Shown: piece by piece, positions 5,251 through 34,758 of the stretch
How positions within the stretch are numbered: the stretch's first letter is position 1
Layout of the letters: each line of letters starts with the position of its first letter
Assembly: GCA_937967405.1 (NCBI GenBank)
Contig: CALCJV010000017.1
Location: 1-44,643, forward strand
Direction: 5' to 3'
Length of the DNA: 44,643 nucleotides
Origin: an uncultured Chloroflexales bacterium
Lineage (GTDB): Bacteria > Chloroflexota > Chloroflexia > Chloroflexales > Chloroflexaceae
Made by a program: the position numbers and the translations under genes
Notes under the pieces: model-generated
The model's database searches: none
What the model was told of the DNA's origin: nothing
The model's input: the letters and a program-made list of their open reading frames with translations, nothing else

Positions 5251-5412
5251 AGCGAAGCGGCGTACCTTTCATGCTTAATGTGGTGGTGGCAGCGCGGTGT
5301 GTCGGTGCGTCTGCCAATTCAGGCATTAGTGTAGCACGGCTTGGGTGCAGCGGCAACTGGGCCACAACGCCGTTAGTGATAAGTCCACCATACCAAATGT
5401 CGCACACCGCGC

Positions 5413-24977: not shown

Positions 24978-26008
24978 TGATGCGCCGTGCCGCAACAGAA
25001 TGGCAACTGCACATGACGCAGCCTGCCTCTGCCCCGCTTGCACCGGAGGCGAGCACGCTGCCGACGATGCAGCAGGCCCTGCTGGCGTGGTTTCGCCAAC
25101 ACGCCCGCGATCTGCCGTGGCGCACGACCCGCGACCCGTATCAGATTCTGGTCGCTGAGATGATGCTGCAACAGACACAAGTTGAGCGCGTGATCCCCAA
25201 ATATCACGCCTTTCTGGCTGCCTTCCCTACGCTCAACGACCTCGCTGAAGCGGCAACGGCCGACGTGATTCGGCTCTGGTCGGGCTTGGGCTACAATCGC
25301 CGCGCTGTCAATCTGCACCGGATTGCCCGCCTGATCGTGAGCAACTACGGCGGCGAGGTCCCGCGCAGCGTGGCCACCTTGCAGCAGCTGCCCGGCATCG
25401 GGGCCTATACGGCTGGCGCAATCGCCTGCTTTGCCTTTGAGCAGGATGTGGCCTTCCTCGATACCAATATCCGTCGCGTGATCCGTCGTGCTTGGGTGGC
25501 TCCAGAGGAGAGGCCCCCGCCTACCCCAGATCGGGTACTGCAACAGCTGGGCGCAGAACTGATTCCGGCTGGGCAGGGCTGGCACTGGAATCAAGCGATG
25601 ATGGAACTTGGTGCACTGCTCTGCACCGCCCGTGCACCCACCTGTTGGCAGTGCCCGCTTCAGCCCCACTGCCGCAGCTATGCTGAGTGGCGCACCCGCG
25701 ATGAGCAACTGTTTGCTTGTCCGGATGGAAGCACCTATCCTCGCGCTGATCAGCCGCCGCGCCGCCGCGCCGCCGAACGCCCAGAAACGCCGTTTGTCGG
25801 CTCGAATCGCTACTATCGCGGGCGTGTGGTCGAGCTGCTGCGGGCCTTACCGCCCGATACGCAGCTGCCCATTCCCCAGCTGGCCGTGCAACTCAAGCCC
25901 ACCTTCGCGGCCGATACTGAGCAGGCATGGCTCGAACGCCTGCTGCACGGTTTGCATCGCGATGGCTTGATCGTTGTGGCTGACGGTGCCGTGCGATTAC
26001 CCCGCTAA
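24977..26008 (+). CDS. mutY: A/G-specific adenine DNA glycosylase (MutY-like) lacking the NUDIX-type C-terminal domain
   Basis: 343 aa. The HhH-GPD core has catalytic E61 (VAEMMLQQTQVE), the hairpin LPGIGAYTAGAI (138-149), catalytic D162 (AFLDTNIRRV) and four Fe-S cysteines C216-x6-C223-x2-C226-x5-C232. It should remove adenine mispaired with 8-oxoguanine. The C-terminal about 80 residues (YYRGRVVELL ... WLERLLHGLHRDGLIVV) look like a small winged helix rather than the NUDIX-like 8-oxoG reader of E. coli MutY. Start: GTG at 24977 or the adjacent ATG at 24980, overlapping the rel stop; no Shine-Dalgarno sequence is seen, consistent with translational coupling. Confidence 0.9.
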   Translation: MMRRAATEWQLHMTQPASAPLAPEASTLPTMQQALLAWFRQHARDLPWRTTRDPYQILVAEMMLQQTQVERVIPKYHAFLAAFPTLNDLAEAATADVIRLWSGLGYNRRAVNLHRIARLIVSNYGGEVPRSVATLQQLPGIGAYTAGAIACFAFEQDVAFLDTNIRRVIRRAWVAPEERPPPTPDRVLQQLGAELIPAGQGWHWNQAMMELGALLCTARAPTCWQCPLQPHCRSYAEWRTRDEQLFACPDGSTYPRADQPPRRRAAERPETPFVGSNRYYRGRVVELLRALPPDTQLPIPQLAVQLKPTFAADTEQAWLERLLHGLHRDGLIVVADGAVRLPR

Positions 26009-26121
26009 ACCGATTCTATCTGTGGTACTATACACTATCATAAGGTTGATGAGAGCATAGGCAATCTGCGTGATGCTCAGTAACGGCCTGTCCTGTCACG
26101 CACATTCTTGGTGGTGCGCGG

Positions 26122-26150
26122 TTGACCAGCCGTACCGCCTGTGCTACAGT
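26122..26150 (+). promoter_or_regulatory. Promoter of the RlmI-like methyltransferase gene
   Basis: TTGACC (26122-26127), a 17-bp spacer and TACAGT (26145-26150) preceded by an extended TGC. It predicts transcription starting near 26157 and a leader of about 100 nt before the ATG at 26258. Confidence 0.6.
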
Positions 26151-26257
26151 GCTAGCTATACAAAAAATTGGAGTGGCTGTGGAATCGCGCTGAAACATGC
26201 CTTTGCATACCACACCCATACGTTAATATGTCTGAAATATGTCTAAGCGGAGAGAGC

Positions 26258-27457
26258 ATGCCGAGCCTACCACGTGCAACAGTTCTGCTGCAACAAGGCC
26301 GCGAACGCCCAGTGTTGGCCCATCACCCGTGGGTCTTTTCGGGAGCCATCGCCCGCGTCATTGGCCAGCCCGCCGATGGCGATGAGGTGGATGTGCAGAC
26401 GGTAGACGGTGAGTGGGTGGCACGCGGTACATGGAGTAGTGCCTCGCAGATTCGGGTGCGCTTATTTACATGGGATGATCGTGAGCATTTGGAGCCAGAC
26501 CTGATCCGCGCTCGTCTCGAACGGGCGTTGGCCCTGCGCCAGCAACTCCCCTTGACCCATCGCAGCAATGCGTATCGCGTCGTCTATGCTGAAGCGGATG
26601 GGCTGCCCGGCTTGATTGTAGATCGTTATGCGGATGATCTCGTGATCCAAATCCTTACGCAGGGCATGGCCGTGCGTCTTGAGCAGGTTCTTGAGCTGCT
26701 CGTGCAGATCTTTGCGCCGCGCAGCATCTACGAGCGGAGCGATGCCGAAGTGCGCCAGAAAGAGGGCCTCCCGCAGGAATCGGGGCTGCGCTGGGGTGTG
26801 CCTGCGCCTCCTGCAATCCAGTTTCGCACGCATGATTTGAGCTTCAGCATGGATTGGCGCGATGGGCAAAAGACGGGCTTTTACCTTGATCAGAGTGACA
26901 ACCGGCTGCGGGTGGCTAGCTATGCTGCAGGAGGTGAGCTGCTCGACTGCTTCTGTTATAGTGGGGGCTTCGCGGTGTATGCGGCACGCGCGGGCGCACT
27001 TCAGATCACCGCAGTAGATAGTAGCGCAGGTGCATTGGCACGGGTGGCTACCCATATGCAGCAGAATCACTTATATCCTGAACTAGAACTCATTGAGGCG
27101 GATGTATTTAAGCAGCTGCGCCAGTATCGGCTGGAAGAACGCGCCTTTGATGTGATCGTGCTGGATCCGCCCAAATTCGCGCATAGTCAACAACAGGTAG
27201 ATCGGGCTACCCGCGGCTACAAAGATATTAACATGAACGCGATGCGGCTGCTGCGGCAAGGCGGCATTTTGGCGACCTTTAGCTGTTCGGGGCTGCTTTC
27301 GGCCGATCTGTTCCAGAAGGTGGTGTTTGGAGCCGCGCTAGATGCGCGCCGCGAGGTGCAGATTCTGGAACGCCTGACGCAGGCGGCGGATCATCCTGTG
27401 CTATTATCGTTCCCAGAGAGTGAATACCTCAAAGGGTTTATTTGCCGGGTCTGGTAA
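26258..27457 (+). CDS. Class I rRNA methyltransferase, RlmI-like (23S rRNA m5C)
   Basis: 399 aa from the ATG at 26258 (MPSLPRATV), preceded by GGAGAGAG; in-frame codons from 26168 are not conserved-looking. An N-terminal PUA domain (about 1-75) with HPWVFSGAI leads to a Rossmann methyltransferase with DWRDGQKTGFYLDQSDNR, SAM loop LLDCFCYSGGFAVYAA, catalytic-type DPPKFA and a CSG motif (ATFSCSGLLS). This is the RlmI/RlmK architecture that methylates large-subunit rRNA. The precise target C1962 is inferred by homology. Confidence 0.9.
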   Translation: MPSLPRATVLLQQGRERPVLAHHPWVFSGAIARVIGQPADGDEVDVQTVDGEWVARGTWSSASQIRVRLFTWDDREHLEPDLIRARLERALALRQQLPLTHRSNAYRVVYAEADGLPGLIVDRYADDLVIQILTQGMAVRLEQVLELLVQIFAPRSIYERSDAEVRQKEGLPQESGLRWGVPAPPAIQFRTHDLSFSMDWRDGQKTGFYLDQSDNRLRVASYAAGGELLDCFCYSGGFAVYAARAGALQITAVDSSAGALARVATHMQQNHLYPELELIEADVFKQLRQYRLEERAFDVIVLDPPKFAHSQQQVDRATRGYKDINMNAMRLLRQGGILATFSCSGLLSADLFQKVVFGAALDARREVQILERLTQAADHPVLLSFPESEYLKGFICRVW

Positions 27458-27510
27458 ACGGGAGCACGTTCCCGGCTGTGCTGTATGTGTAAACATAACT
27501 GTACGCGCTT

Positions 27511-28713
27511 ATGAGTTACTCTATCTTGGATGATGGGCATATCTCTAGCCCGAAGGGGTATCGCGCTACTGGTATCTCGGCGGGCTTCAAGGAAGGCTCG
27601 CGGGCCCGTGATCTCGCGCTCGTGTATTCCGAGCTACCCGCCCGTGCCGCAGCCGTCTTTACAACGAGTACCACCAAAGCTGCGCCCGTCTTTTTCGATC
27701 AGGCGATTCTGGCTCGCAACCGTGATGCAATCCGAGCGGTGCTGATCAATTCGGGGCAAGCCAATGCGGGCACGGGCCAGCCGGGCTTGAACGATGCGGT
27801 TGAAACGGCTAAGCTCACCGCCGATGAACTCGAAATCCCCCGCGATAGTGTCCTGCTCATGTCGAGCGGCATTATTGGAGTGCCCTTGATGATGGACAAG
27901 ATGCGCGAAGGGATTATTCGGGCGATCTCAGAACTCGATAGTGGTGGCGGGCGGCGAGCTGCATTAGCCATGCTTACCACCGATACGCGCCCCAAAGAGC
28001 GGGCTTATACGGTGCAGCTGCGGGATGGACGCACGATTCGGATGGCCGGCATGGCCAAGGGCACCCGCATGGTGCATCCGCAGCTTGCTACGCTGCTCAC
28101 GGTGGTCACTTCCGATGTGCCGATTGACGTGCGCCTGTTGCAGCGTTCGCTTCAGCAGAGCGTGGCCCGTTCGTTCAGTCGGCTCACGATAGATGGCGAC
28201 ACCTCGCCCAATGATACGGTACTGGTTCTGGCCAATGGAGCTGCGGAAGGCTCGGCGATTGTCGAAGCGAGTTCGTGGGAGTATGGGGCGTGGCAAGAAG
28301 CCCTCGATGCGTTGCTCGCTGATCTGGCGCAGCAGATTGTGCGCGATGCTGCCAGCAGTGGCAAAATCATCCAAGTGCAGGTGCGCGGCGCACAGACTGA
28401 AGCCGCCGCCCGCCAGATTGCCCAAGTGGTCGCTCGTTCAGCCAGCGTGCGGCGGGCCTGCAAAGAGGGTAGCCCTGATTGGGGCACGCTGCTCGCGGCA
28501 ATTGGGGCCAGCAATGTTGATCTGTATCCTGATCTGCTTGATCTGTATGTTGGTGATATACTAGTTATGCAGGGTGGCTTGCCCGTTTCATTTGATCAGC
28601 AAGCCGCTGTGCAATACTTCTCGCATCAAGAGTTAGAGTTTATGATTGACCTGCATCTGGGCGCAGGTGCAGCGACGATTTGGACATGTACATGGCATGG
28701 TGAATTTGCATGA
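27511..28713 (+). CDS. argJ: ArgJ, ornithine acetyltransferase / N-acetylglutamate synthase, short C-terminus
   Basis: 400 aa. ArgJ moves the acetyl group from N-acetylornithine to glutamate, closing the arginine acetyl cycle. The self-cleavage site is at A193/T194 (MVHPQLATLLTVVTSD), with K183 in MAKG and the oxyanion SSGIIG at 118-123 (Ser where Thr is usual). DGDTSPNDTVLVLANG is intact. The protein ends WTCTWHGEFA, about seven residues earlier than usual, without the family's final INADY(R/T)T segment. Its TGA overlaps the ATG of the LON-domain gene (ATGA), indicating coupling. Confidence 0.92.
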   Translation: MSYSILDDGHISSPKGYRATGISAGFKEGSRARDLALVYSELPARAAAVFTTSTTKAAPVFFDQAILARNRDAIRAVLINSGQANAGTGQPGLNDAVETAKLTADELEIPRDSVLLMSSGIIGVPLMMDKMREGIIRAISELDSGGGRRAALAMLTTDTRPKERAYTVQLRDGRTIRMAGMAKGTRMVHPQLATLLTVVTSDVPIDVRLLQRSLQQSVARSFSRLTIDGDTSPNDTVLVLANGAAEGSAIVEASSWEYGAWQEALDALLADLAQQIVRDAASSGKIIQVQVRGAQTEAAARQIAQVVARSASVRRACKEGSPDWGTLLAAIGASNVDLYPDLLDLYVGDILVMQGGLPVSFDQQAAVQYFSHQELEFMIDLHLGAGAATIWTCTWHGEFA

Positions 28714-29363
28714 CACTACAAGAACTTCCGTTGTTTCCCTTAGGTACGGTGATGTTTCCGGGCGCAACGCTGACTTTGCATATCTTTGAGGAACGCTATC
28801 GGCTGATGATTGGTCAGTGCCTCGAACGCAGCACCCCCTTTGGGATCGTGCTGATCCGTGAGGGGCACGAAGTTGGGGTGGGTGGGGCAACTCCGCATGA
28901 GATTGGCACGCTCGTGACCATCAATGCGAGTGTGCGCCTTGAAGATGGCCGCCTCTTGATAGCGACGGTAGGGCAGCAACGCTTCCGCATTCGCAGTATT
29001 GTGCAGCAGATTCCGTACTTGACGGCAACGGTAGCGTTGCTGAATGAGACCCCCTCGCACCAAACGAGCCTTATGGCGCACGAGGTGCGCCGGATTCACG
29101 CGCAGTATTGGCAGGCGGTGGCGGCTGCGACTGGCGTGGCGCAGGAGGCAGAGGAGCTACCCGACGACAATCTGGAACTTTCGTATCACCTTGCCTATCG
29201 CCTCCAAGTCACGAATGAGCGCAAGCAACGCTGGCTGGCAAGCGATGCCACCATGCGCCTGCGTGAGATTGCGGCAATGCTGCGGGCGGAGATTGATCTC
29301 CTGCCGCGCAGCCAGCGCAACGACTTGTCGCGTATCTCTGATCTGCCGTGGTCGTGGAACTAA
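28710..29363 (+). CDS. LON substrate-binding (PUA-like) domain protein
   Basis: 217 aa. The whole protein matches the N-terminal domain of Lon protease alone (LPLFPLGTVMFPGATLTLHIFEERYRLMI, then PFGIVLIREG ... GTLVTINASVRLEDGRLLIATVGQQRFRI) with a helical C-terminus; no AAA+ or protease part. Stand-alone LON-domain proteins are common but poorly characterised. It overlaps argJ by 4 bp and precedes the YlxP gene by 39 bp, so the three form an operon. Confidence 0.87.
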   Translation: MTLQELPLFPLGTVMFPGATLTLHIFEERYRLMIGQCLERSTPFGIVLIREGHEVGVGGATPHEIGTLVTINASVRLEDGRLLIATVGQQRFRIRSIVQQIPYLTATVALLNETPSHQTSLMAHEVRRIHAQYWQAVAAATGVAQEAEELPDDNLELSYHLAYRLQVTNERKQRWLASDATMRLREIAAMLRAEIDLLPRSQRNDLSRISDLPWSWN

Positions 29364-29402
29364 GCCGCGCCAGCAAAACCATGCGGCAAGCGGGACAAAG
29401 CC

Positions 29403-29687
29403 ATGTTTATCGGGGCGTGTGAGCTAACGTTGCATCTGCCGTTGGCGCAATCGCTGAAAGATAAACGGCAGGTGATCAAATCATTGATGGCGCGGCTTCG
29501 CAATGAATTCAACATTGCGGTAGCCGAGGTGGATCAGCAGCAGGCATGGCAAGTCGCGGTGCTTGGGGTTGCCTGTGTTTCCTCTTCTCAGAAGTATGCC
29601 CACGAGCAGCTGGAAGCGGTGGTGCGGTTTGTGCAGACGCACCGGCCTGATCTCCCCTTAACCCAGTACGAGATTGAGATTCTGTAA
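29403..29687 (+). CDS. DUF503 / YlxP-like protein
   Basis: 94 aa, full length for the family. It has the ferredoxin-like pattern MFIGACELTLHLPLAQSLKDKRQVIKSLMARLRNEFNIAVAEV and then QVAVLGVACVSSS. In other bacteria YlxP lies near ribosome-maturation genes (infB, rbfA) and is thought to have a role there; here it sits between a LON-domain gene and a BchI-like gene, which says little about function. The stop is 5 bp before the next start. Confidence 0.88.
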   Translation: MFIGACELTLHLPLAQSLKDKRQVIKSLMARLRNEFNIAVAEVDQQQAWQVAVLGVACVSSSQKYAHEQLEAVVRFVQTHRPDLPLTQYEIEIL

Positions 29688-29692
29688 CGCCC

Positions 29693-30775
29693 ATGCACGC
29701 GGCTGATGAGATTCACCCATTCCCGCTGTTGGCGATTGTCGGCCAGCCCGAACTGAAAACCGCGCTGGTCATCACCCTAATCAATCCGCTGGTGGGCGGG
29801 GTGCTCCTTAGTGGGCCCTATGGCGTGGGCAAAACGACGGCCGTGCGGAGCCTGCTCGACGTGATGCCTGTTGTCGAGCGCGAACTGTGGCAGGATGATG
29901 GCACGATCCGCACCGTGCGCGAGCCGATGCGCCTGATCGAATTGCCCTTGAATGCGCGTCTTGAGGATGTGGTGGGCGGGATCAATGAGCGCGTAGCGAT
30001 TGAGCAGCAACGGGTCTTGCTGGAGGAGGGCATCCTCGCTCGGGCCCACCGCAATCTGCTTTATGTGGATGAGATCAATCTGCTAGAGCCGCATGTTATT
30101 GATGTTATTTTGGATGCGGCTGCACAGGGGCGCACGCTGGTGCGACGTGGGCCATTGGTGCGACTGTTTCCGGCACAGTTTGTGCTGGTTGGCTCGATGA
30201 ACCCCGAAGAGGGCCCATTGCGCCCGCAGATCATGGATCGGTTCGGCTTACGGGTGTGGGTTGCGCCTTTGAGCGATGCCCGCGAACGGCTCGAAGTATA
30301 TCGGCGGGCGCAGCTCTTCCGCGCTGATCCACAGGCCTTTCGCTCGGCCTATGCCGAACAGACCCAGCTCCTGCGCGAAGAGGTTGAGATTGCCCGCGAG
30401 ATTCTGCCGCATGTGCAGATTCCGCCGCTGCTTGAAACCCTTGCGCTCCAGCTTGTACAAGAGCTTCAGATACCCTCGCACCGCGCTGAAATTGCCCTGC
30501 TCGAAGCCGCCCGTGCCCGCGCTGCCGCCGATTTCCGTAGCGAAGTGGGGCAGGAGGACATCACCCGCATGGCAGCACTGGCCCTGCGCCAACGCCGCAG
30601 TACCACGATTGAAGCCTATGCGGCGCAGGTACAGCAGGAGAATGAGCAGGTGCAAGCCGCGCTGCACAAAGTTATGGCCCAGCATGCTCCGGCCTGCGCT
30701 CCAGCGCAGCCCGTCCGCAAGCGCAAGCAGTCGCGCAGCACAATGCGCCAGCTGGAGCAGGGCGGAGAGGGCTAG
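29693..30775 (+). CDS. BchI/ChlI-like AAA+ ATPase (magnesium chelatase subunit I homologue)
   Basis: 360 aa. Walker A GPYGVGKTT (41-49), Walker B LLYVDEIN (122-129), then IDVILDAAAQGRTLVRRGP, GSMNPEEGPLRPQIMDRFGLRV and a C-terminal helical lid, the BchI arrangement. BchI hexamers drive Mg2+ insertion into protoporphyrin IX with BchD and BchH; related ATPases serve cobaltochelatase. No D or H subunit lies nearby, and Walker A (PYGVGKTT) differs from the usual DRGTGKST, so this may be a second paralogue. The C-terminus ends in a basic Lys/Arg run. It is the last gene before the restriction-modification island. Confidence 0.8.
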   Translation: MHAADEIHPFPLLAIVGQPELKTALVITLINPLVGGVLLSGPYGVGKTTAVRSLLDVMPVVERELWQDDGTIRTVREPMRLIELPLNARLEDVVGGINERVAIEQQRVLLEEGILARAHRNLLYVDEINLLEPHVIDVILDAAAQGRTLVRRGPLVRLFPAQFVLVGSMNPEEGPLRPQIMDRFGLRVWVAPLSDARERLEVYRRAQLFRADPQAFRSAYAEQTQLLREEVEIAREILPHVQIPPLLETLALQLVQELQIPSHRAEIALLEAARARAAADFRSEVGQEDITRMAALALRQRRSTTIEAYAAQVQQENEQVQAALHKVMAQHAPACAPAQPVRKRKQSRSTMRQLEQGGEG

Positions 30776-30796
30776 AGGCGGGGGAAGGTATACTAT

Positions 30797-31837
30797 ATGC
30801 TCGCCTATCATGCATATCTAGATGAAACGCTGAAGCCCGCACCGCCGCATACGCCGCTGGTGCTTGACCTCTTTGCTGGATGTGGCGGTCTTGCGCTTGG
30901 CTTTGAGGCTTGTGGCTTTGCCACAGTAGGGTTTGAAAAGAACCCAGAAGCCTGTGCAACGTACAACCGCAATCTTGCTGGGCAATGCCATCACGTGAAC
31001 CTAACGTTAGATACACCACTCCCGCGAGCATCCATCATCATTGGTGGGCCACCATGCCAACCCTTCAGTGTTGGTGGTCATCAATTGGGCATCAATGATC
31101 CTCGCAATGGCATCCCGATCTTCTTACGTGCTGTCGAGCAAAATCAGCCCGACATCTGGATTCTCGAAAATGTACGTGGATTGTTGTATCGGAATCACTG
31201 GTATTTTCAGCACATCATCCAGCAAATGAGGGGTCTTGGCTACATTGTTGACTATCGCTTACTCAATGCAGCACGGTTCGGTGTTCCCCAAAGTCGTGAG
31301 CGGTTGTTTATTGTGGGCCATCGCGGACGATTTGCTTTTCCAGCATCAATTGGCCCTCAGGTTACGGTGGCAGATGCAATCGGTGACACGGCCCTGCTTG
31401 ATTTACCAGAGGCGAAATTCTTGACCCCATCTATGGATACCTACATTGCGAAGTACGAACGTGCTTCAAAATGTAGTCTTCCGCGTGACTTGCATCTCGA
31501 CAAAGTTGCACGCACGATAACATGTCGGAACCTTGCCGGAGCAACTGGCGATATGCTGCGAGTACGCTTGCCGGATGGACGGCGACGACGTTTGGTGGTG
31601 CGTGAAGGGGCATGGTTGCAGAGCTTTCCGGGCTGGTTTGAATTCAGCGGGTCTGAGACGGCACAATACAATCAGATCGGTAATGCTGTACCTCCTTTAT
31701 TGGCATACAGGCTCGCACAATCGGTACGAGCCTACTTGGACTCAACCTATCGTATTCCTGCTCATATCCTCAGTGAAGCTGCCTATGTTGATGGACATGC
31801 AACAGAAGCCGATCAAATGGAGTTTTCGTTTGAATAA
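30797..31837 (+). CDS. DNA (cytosine-5) methyltransferase of a type II restriction-modification island
   Basis: 346 aa with motif I DLFAGCGG (24-31), motif IV GGPPCQPFS (83-91, catalytic C87), motif VI ENV (124-126), motif VIII QSRERLF (165-171), motif IX RRLVVREGAWLQSFP and motif X QIGNAVPPLLA in the canonical order. It looks fully active. GGGGAAGG lies 8 nt before the ATG. The region between motifs VIII and IX, which sets target recognition, is short (about 60 residues). Base composition is more AT-rich than its neighbours, as is the adjoining endonuclease, pointing to acquisition as a unit. Confidence 0.93.
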   Translation: MLAYHAYLDETLKPAPPHTPLVLDLFAGCGGLALGFEACGFATVGFEKNPEACATYNRNLAGQCHHVNLTLDTPLPRASIIIGGPPCQPFSVGGHQLGINDPRNGIPIFLRAVEQNQPDIWILENVRGLLYRNHWYFQHIIQQMRGLGYIVDYRLLNAARFGVPQSRERLFIVGHRGRFAFPASIGPQVTVADAIGDTALLDLPEAKFLTPSMDTYIAKYERASKCSLPRDLHLDKVARTITCRNLAGATGDMLRVRLPDGRRRRLVVREGAWLQSFPGWFEFSGSETAQYNQIGNAVPPLLAYRLAQSVRAYLDSTYRIPAHILSEAAYVDGHATEADQMEFSFE

Positions 31838-31853
31838 TGGAGCGGTTTAGATT

Positions 31854-32840
31854 ATGTCGAAAGTGCAGCAATCTAAATCAATTCCAGTTCAGATGGTGAT
31901 CGAGCAGATGCTCAGCATCCTACACACACTCGGTCTACCACTTGCCGATCAAACGCGCCGACGGCGGGAGCGGCTCGCTATGGCAGTCTTAGCATTGGCA
32001 GATGTTCCGCATCCCGATAAGTGGCCGCAAGCTAAAAGTATCACAGACCAATACAGCCTCACTACCCGCAAAATTATTCAGTATTGGAATACCCACTTTG
32101 AAGAATAGATCTCTTCTGGTTCTTATGATGATGTTCGGCGGCGAGATCTCATTGTGCTGCTTCGAGTCGGCATTGTTGTGGCGAGCAAAGCACGTGCTGA
32201 CACAAATGATGGTACACGCGGATATGGTGTTACGGCGGGATTCGCCCAACTTTTGCACCAATTTGGAACCGTGCAATGGGAAGCAGCAATCGCAGCGTTT
32301 CGGGCTACGTTGCCTGACTATGCAAAGACGCTTGGTATTGAACGTAACTTGAACAAAACACCTGTGAGCCTACCTGATGGTCAGACTATCCAACTTAGGT
32401 CAGGCAAACATAATGAGTTACAACGCGCAATCATTGAGGATTTTCTTCCACGTTGGGGGTACGCTGCAAATATACTCTATGTTGGCGATGCAAATGATAA
32501 GGATTTATATGTAGCAAGACAAGAACTTGAGGATTTGGGAATATCTCTGCCTGATCGTGCCATACTCCCAGATGTGATTGCGTATTCACGTGATACCAGT
32601 CGGCTTTTCTTCATTGAAGCCGTTTATTCATCTGGGCCTATTTCCAACGAGCGTAGAATACAATTGCAGTCTCTCGTAAAAAACAGGGAGATAACTGTTG
32701 TATATGTAACGGCTTTTCTTGACTGGAATACGTTTCGGCGGTTTAGCCAACAGATTGGTTGGGAAACGGATGTCTGGATAGCAGCTGCTCCCGATCACAT
32801 CATTCATTTTGATGGTGAGCAGTATCTTCGCGGTAATTAA
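31854..32840 (+). pseudogene. BsuBI/PstI-family restriction endonuclease gene interrupted by an in-frame TAG
   Basis: One reading frame of 328 codons runs from ATG 31854 to TAA 32838-32840, broken only by TAG at codon 85 (32106-32108). Codons 1-84 give an N-terminal winged-helix-like part; immediately after the TAG, without a frame change, come ISSGSYDDVRRRDL and then LQRAIIEDFLPRWGY, LYVGDANDKDL, LPDVIAYS, FIEAVYSSGPIS and YVTAFLDWNTFRRF, diagnostic of the PstI/BsuBI endonucleases that cut CTGCAG. Total length equals PstI (about 326 aa). A single base change would restore it. A shorter product from GTG 32154 would miss the first 100 residues. Likely an inactivated gene; readthrough or a sequencing error remain possible. 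Confidence 0.85.
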
Positions 32841-32883
32841 TCTGACCTGTAGCTGATAATCTCCCCCACCCCGCCCCGCCGCG

Positions 32884-32892
32884 TGCTATACT
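32884..32892 (+). promoter_or_regulatory. Extended -10 upstream of the second GH-A gene
   Basis: TGC followed by TATACT (32887-32892) is an extended -10, about 130 bp before the ATG at 33025. No clear -35 is visible in the C-rich sequence above it. Confidence 0.4.
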
Positions 32893-33024
32893 ACCCCATG
32901 TGCGCGGGCTGCAAACTGCGCCGCCCGCTACGTTCAATCTGTAGGCAAGCCCATGTGCCGCTTGCCCAACCGTACCCGTCTACGCTGGATTGATCGACAC
33001 CTGTAACCATCGGAGATAATCCTC

Positions 33025-34758
33025 ATGTCCCGCACGATCCGCCCCCTTTTGATCCTGCTCGCGCTCCTGCTCGTGCTGAGCAGCGTGCCGACTGCCCTTG
33101 CCACGCCCGCCCCAGCTAGCGGGCCCGCCGCGCCTTACGCGGCAGCTGCGCCGCATGCCCAAGAGCTACCGCCCGGCGGCTTCCTCGAAGTCTCCGGCTC
33201 GCAGATCACGCGCTTTGGGCAGCCTGTCGCCCTGCGCGGGATCAACTACTACCCGCAAGGCAAGCCATGGAAAGCCATGTGGCAATATTGGGATGGGCCC
33301 CAAATGGAGCGCGAACTTACCCTAGCCAAACAACAACTCGGCATCAATGTTGTCCGCATCCTTGTGCCCTACGATTACGTCGGCAATGGGCGTGTGAATG
33401 AGAAGCTGCTGGCGCGTATGCGCGAGTTCTTGCAGATTGCGGGCAATCTCGATCTGCGTGTGAATGTCACCCTGTTTGATTTCTATGACGGCTTTCCCCG
33501 CCCCGGCACCCGCGAATTTGAGCGTGATCTGAACTACGTGCGCCTGCTTGTGGGCAACTTCATCGGCGATGAACGCATCTTCGCGTGGGATGTCCACAAC
33601 GAACCGGATCACTACGATGCGTGGGTCAAGCGCGGTGAGGCGCAGCAGGTGCTCTACTGGCTGGGCGCAATGGCCGATGAGATCAAGCGCATCGCCCCTT
33701 ACCACCTCGTCACCGTCGGGATGGGCAACTACGACAATCTGTGGCAGCCGGGCCCCGATGGGCGGCGCGTGATAGACTATAGCGATATTGTCAGTGTGCA
33801 TATCTACAATGCCGAAGATGCCCCCCGCCAACTCGATGAGCTACGCCAATACACCGATAAGCCAATCTTGCTGCAAGAGTTTGGCTGGCCTACCGGCGCA
33901 CCCTGCACCTATCCCGAATACAACGAGGATCAGCAGGTATGGGTCTACCGCACGATGCGTGAGGCCGTGGCTGGGCGTGTGGCGGGCGTGATTGCGTGGA
34001 GCTTGCGCGACTACGATCCGGGCCCACATCGGCGGTGGGACACCCGCGAGGAGCATTACGGCTTGGTTCGCCCCGACGGGAGCCTCAAGCCGGCTGCCTA
34101 CGAGTTTATGCAATACCCCGTCACGCCAATCCCCACCATCACCCGCACCAACTACCGCCTGCACCGTGAACGCTACAAGCTCAATGGGCGCAGAGACCCG
34201 TTGCAGACGGCCAGTGGCAAGTGGGTGAAGGATTGGTTCCGTGAGGCGTGGGAGCATATGGGCGGCATGGGCAGCTTGGGCTTGCCGCTCAGCGAAGCCT
34301 ACGAGCACCCGCGAGGTGGTGTGGTGCAGTATTTTCAAGCGGGCGCACTGCGCCTGAATGGCAGTGCCGTCTTTATGCCCGGCTTCGATAGCTGGCCCCT
34401 CCACTCGCAGATCATGGAAACAATCCGCCCGATCAATATTGGCGAACGCTACGTTGCCTTATACAAGCCCGACATTCCCCCGCCGCCGTCGCTGCCCACC
34501 CCACCCGACGAACGTTACTTCCCCGAAACAGGCTATAGCGTCAAGGGCAAGTTCCTTGAAAAGTACGATACCTTCAGTGGTCCGTGGCGGCTTGGCTTGC
34601 CGATCTCTGGCGAACTACAGGAGCAGGTTGGTGATGTTGTGCTCACGACCCAGTACTTCCAAAATGGGCGACTGGAGTTCAACCCGCAGTATAACGTGGT
34701 GATGTTTGGGCAGATTGGCTACGCCCTGTGGGAGCAGCAGTGCCGCTTCGAGTGGTAA
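33025..34758 (+). CDS. Secreted GH5-like (clan GH-A) glycoside hydrolase with LGFP-like tail
   Basis: 577 aa. Signal peptide about 1-27 (LLILLALLLVLSSVPTALA), a Pro/Ala linker, then a barrel (about 52-355) starting GGFLEVSGSQITRFGQPVALRGINYY with acid/base E193 (WDVHNEPD) and nucleophile E285 (LLQEFGWPTG). The C-terminal 190 residues carry two degenerate LGFP-like repeats (GSLGLPLSEAYE ... VQYFQAGALRLN and YFPETGYSVKGKFLE ... GLPISGE ... TQYFQNGRLEFN), typical of surface attachment or wall binding in this phylum. GGAG precedes the ATG at 33025. The native GC-rich composition resumes here after the restriction island. Confidence 0.87.
   Translation: MSRTIRPLLILLALLLVLSSVPTALATPAPASGPAAPYAAAAPHAQELPPGGFLEVSGSQITRFGQPVALRGINYYPQGKPWKAMWQYWDGPQMERELTLAKQQLGINVVRILVPYDYVGNGRVNEKLLARMREFLQIAGNLDLRVNVTLFDFYDGFPRPGTREFERDLNYVRLLVGNFIGDERIFAWDVHNEPDHYDAWVKRGEAQQVLYWLGAMADEIKRIAPYHLVTVGMGNYDNLWQPGPDGRRVIDYSDIVSVHIYNAEDAPRQLDELRQYTDKPILLQEFGWPTGAPCTYPEYNEDQQVWVYRTMREAVAGRVAGVIAWSLRDYDPGPHRRWDTREEHYGLVRPDGSLKPAAYEFMQYPVTPIPTITRTNYRLHRERYKLNGRRDPLQTASGKWVKDWFREAWEHMGGMGSLGLPLSEAYEHPRGGVVQYFQAGALRLNGSAVFMPGFDSWPLHSQIMETIRPINIGERYVALYKPDIPPPPSLPTPPDERYFPETGYSVKGKFLEKYDTFSGPWRLGLPISGELQEQVGDVVLTTQYFQNGRLEFNPQYNVVMFGQIGYALWEQQCRFEW

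Follow-up and report, generated by a model that had tools for sequence, protein, structure and literature searches.

Two adjacent genes on the forward strand of the window (the whole stretch of 44,643 nucleotides analysed here, from a Chloroflexota draft genome of 159 contigs that is 88% complete) form a type II restriction-modification (R-M) operon, a C5-cytosine methyltransferase (MTase) followed by an endonuclease of the BsuBI/PstI family whose frame is broken by an amber codon. The features are:

30784-32868, no strand assigned: block missing from the same-genus genome G001, with foreign GC content and with its flanks on separate contigs there
30797-31837, + strand: C5-cytosine DNA methyltransferase of 346 aa, open frame, odd motif IX
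31854-32105, + strand: 5' part of the endonuclease gene, first half of the N-terminal helix-turn-helix (HTH) domain
32106-32108, + strand: in-frame amber stop, from translation
32109-32840, + strand: 3' part of the endonuclease gene, the remainder of the HTH domain and the entire catalytic domain

Translation of 31854-32840 gives 84 codons, the TAG, 243 open codons and a TAA; the frame has no indel and no second lesion, leaving the TAG as its only defect. The 84-aa piece ahead of the TAG matches PF17728 (profile positions 3-62, E 2.2e-7), and the match resumes in the same frame beyond it (positions 67-134, E 2.8e-10); on read-through the two become a single match (E 3.3e-24), with the PF06616 nuclease domain (profile positions 2-154, E 8.6e-52) lying downstream of the TAG. 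The 328-aa read-through protein scores 174 bits against PF06616 and 86 bits against PF17728, for both of which the curated Pfam cut-off is 27 bits, and it matches SdaI (PDB 2ixs, 323 aa) over residues 33-325 (1.1e-35). By its domains this is a member of the BsuBI/PstI family, and by its interrupted frame a disrupted one; it shares with the family, SdaI included, both full-length domains on read-through, and differs in having a TAG within the N-terminal domain and a partner methylase of the C5 class. An earlier note, made from the sequence alone, had described a PstI/BsuBI-family endonuclease split by one amber codon, with family sequence on either side in one frame and no indel, and had proposed alignment with PF06616 and the N-terminal domain as a check; the matches to both profiles bear this description out. 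Its statement that the total length equals that of PstI, which has 326 aa, is close rather than exact.

In all of the 78 other members aligned, the column of the TAG holds a sense codon -- for N, K, S, D, Q, T, A or R, mostly polar residues -- and none has a stop there. The residues downstream of this column are strongly conserved across these relatives, and the closest subfamily conserves the segment directly 3' of the TAG, ISSGSYDDxRRxDL, as the earlier note had supposed for the family. Alignment with relatives revealed no departure of the endonuclease from the strictly invariant columns, so that the TAG is all that indicates loss of function, a state that fits a recent stop.

The product of 30797-31837 matches PF00145 (E 6.8e-61), which places it in the C5-cytosine class, and is mostly 51-62% identical to the methyltransferases found at the same position in relatives. 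The partner methylases of PstI and BsuBI are of the N6-adenine type; since the partner here is a C5-cytosine methyltransferase, the pair does not strictly qualify as a PstI-type system. In an alignment of 70 methyltransferases (that of the window and 69 relatives), the window enzyme departs four times from otherwise invariant columns, at F106I, P237V, R273W and D279G; two is the maximum for any other enzyme, and 58 of the 70 have none. R273W and D279G both lie in motif IX (window positions 31592-31650) and replace an Arg and an Asp that M.HhaI and M.HaeIII have as well, while PPCQ, ENV and QxRxR are retained. The enzyme may still methylate, and relaxed constraint on it is reasonably inferred, if short of demonstration; the departures at invariant positions suggest that the entire operon may be decaying. 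The "intact methyltransferase" of the earlier note thus stands as regards the open reading frame, but not as regards these four positions, and the class is C5.

The wider family was searched for in genome contigs, where a scan with a single sequence found no endonuclease relatives; a query built by aligning the window protein with two relatives detected 80 loci, in Cyanobacteria, Bacteroidota, Verrucomicrobiota, Pseudomonadota, Chloroflexota and others. At most of the 80 a homologous C5 methylase adjoins the endonuclease, nearly always directly upstream, and several of those where none was seen are truncated by a contig end. A branch with full support (100/100 in a 34-sequence tree) groups the C5-linked endonucleases in one clade, apart from their N6-linked relatives; in L004, a Chloroflexota relative belonging to the other branch, the endonuclease is fused to an Eco57I-type N6 methyltransferase. 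The window system, with a C5 methyltransferase directly upstream and an endonuclease within the C5-linked clade, belongs to this branch, to whose other endonucleases (loci L038-L117) its own is mostly 40-48% identical. It resembles them in the pairing of methyltransferase and endonuclease and in falling within a single clade, but it is the most diverged member and has a stop; in their respective trees its two proteins have the longest end branches, of 1.22 and 1.03, where the medians are 0.39 and 0.47. AplI of Arthrospira probably uses a C5 methylase as well and belongs to the same branch. A review gives the specificity of this cyanobacterial system as CTGCAG (PMC5741684).

That R-M genes are frequently corrupted is well established (PMC4687349). 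Across the 80 loci all but a few of the C5-linked endonucleases are uninterrupted, the exceptions being L041 and L067, with in-frame TAA codons, and L105 and L113, with frameshifts; endonucleases are disrupted at 4 of the 80 loci and methyltransferases at about 2, which does not establish an excess. Among 41 genomes of the window's family, C5-type systems were found only in the window and in G024 (contig C965), and in both the endonuclease is crippled. The two are alike in having an open C5 methyltransferase (61% identical between them) beside the damaged gene, but the G024 endonuclease was truncated by a deletion, lacking about 107 N-terminal residues, and that of the window by a stop codon. 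At the cyanobacterial locus L041 (4657-5963) both genes have decayed, an 83-residue methylase remnant lying beside the TAA-interrupted endonuclease. In relatives from the same order (L008, L013, L014, L016, L017 and L019), BsuBI/PstI-family endonuclease genes contain in-frame stops or are fragmentary.

The break in L105 (Bacteroidota; 5252-5257), a one-base insertion at codons 85-86 followed by two stops, adjoins the position of the window's TAG. If codons 85-86 were a hot spot, or a site used deliberately to switch off restriction, a reversible or leaky break there would tune restriction; we regard this as scarcely credible. The chance that one of the four other lesions falls within a codon of 85 is about 4%, and L105 has no slippery sequence, so that the proximity is treated as coincidence and a shared switch point was rejected.

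The operon is foreign in composition, with a GC content of 47-51% against 57-64% for its neighbours and a GC3 of 0.41-0.46 against 0.61-0.74. In G001 the left flank (25202-30783) is conserved at 89% identity and the right flank (32869-34488) at 92%; they lie on different contigs, and the 2,085 bases that separate them in the window are missing. In the window's genome, contig C115 brings together the sequences found next to those flanks in G001, which puts the operon at the breakpoint of a rearrangement between the two genomes. On C115 the reciprocal junction (G000:C115:4554-4566) is clean. Short GGCGGGG/CCCCGCC inverted sequences are present at the joints of the rearrangement.

Palindromes were counted over window positions 1-44643 together with sampled contigs of the window's own genome (G000) and of G001. 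SdaI, which has the same fold as the window endonuclease, cuts CCTGCAGG. For CTGCAG the count in the window and sampled host contigs is 5, with 151 expected; in G001, which is without the operon, it is 0, with 120 expected. Many other palindromes are as strongly avoided in the host sample (CGATCG 0 against 178 expected, TGCGCA 1 against 311, GAGCTC 0 against 85), and the median ratio of observed to expected over all palindromes is 0.59 there and 0.49 in G001. Because G001 avoids CTGCAG equally without having the operon, the avoidance is uninformative on the operon and was dropped as a sign of its past activity; such avoidance can trace other or lost systems (PMC4687349).

The chief rival to loss of restriction, though an unlikely one, is that the TAG reflects an error in the consensus or the assembly, or an allele carried by a minority of a mixed population, with the gene intact in most cells. 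The draft state of the genome gives this some weight, as do the presence of exactly one lesion and the retention of all invariant endonuclease residues; PMC3488263 documents a high rate of false disruption calls, and cites one study in which resequencing did not confirm 109 of 138 frameshifts or stops called in draft genes. Against it, the gene is otherwise clean, the partner methyltransferase likewise shows signs of relaxed constraint, and the endonuclease has been disrupted independently in relatives. Consensus substitutions that happen to create a stop are, moreover, rare in well-covered assemblies.

A real TAG might still be read. Amber readthrough by a suppressor tRNA or recoding, the alternative named in the earlier note, would give full-length endonuclease, perhaps at a low and safe level, and the in-frame family sequence beyond the TAG and the retained invariant residues would suit it. 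However, an amber suppressor tRNA, which that note had proposed looking for, was not seen (no CTA anticodon among the 44 tRNA genes detected in the 88% complete genome), and RF1 is present. Among 158 long ORFs in a 293-kb sample, 74 (47%) end with TAG, which makes it the commonest stop, and in-frame continuation past it shows no excess relative to TAA. The neighbouring ATPase gene ends with a TAG at the same place in the window's genome and in G001, and no relative has a stop at the TAG column. With RF1, no CTA tRNA, frequent TAG stops and the ATPase TAG, readthrough is very unlikely in this 88% complete genome, and amber recoding was rejected on the tRNAs, RF1 and stop usage. It is similarly improbable that an active endonuclease forms from the 84-aa piece together with one of about 228 aa restarted at GTG 32154: this in-frame start would keep the catalytic domain whole, but the HTH domain is itself cut by the break, the restart loses 15 further residues of a conserved stretch, and no relative has such an arrangement as a stable design, the break in L105 being an insertion with two stops.

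The nonsense mutation is most likely real and recent. Most probably, the R-M operon was acquired horizontally and restriction was later lost through this one nonsense mutation in the N-terminal HTH domain of the endonuclease. Translation would stop after 84 residues, so that no enzyme joining the DNA-binding and catalytic domains would be made; the methyltransferase frame is open and its product perhaps still methylates, though the motif IX changes suggest a loss of function across the operon. Observed directly are the stop, the family homology, the type of operon, the foreign base composition and the block's absence from G001; that activity was lost, that this was recent and in which order things happened are inferred. 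The recent loss of restriction proposed in the earlier note is accordingly the best-supported reading, given the single lesion, the invariant residues kept, the sense codon in relatives and the lack of an amber tRNA; its "protective methylase kept" is unproven, in view of R273W, D279G, P237V and F106I.

The locus represents an ordinary kind of gene decay, of a sort known from R-M systems, and offers a snapshot of the decay of a type II system following horizontal transfer, in a lineage whose only other system found of the C5-linked branch is also crippled in its endonuclease. For annotation, the label of PstI system is best avoided in favour of a disrupted endonuclease beside a C5 methylase whose activity is uncertain.
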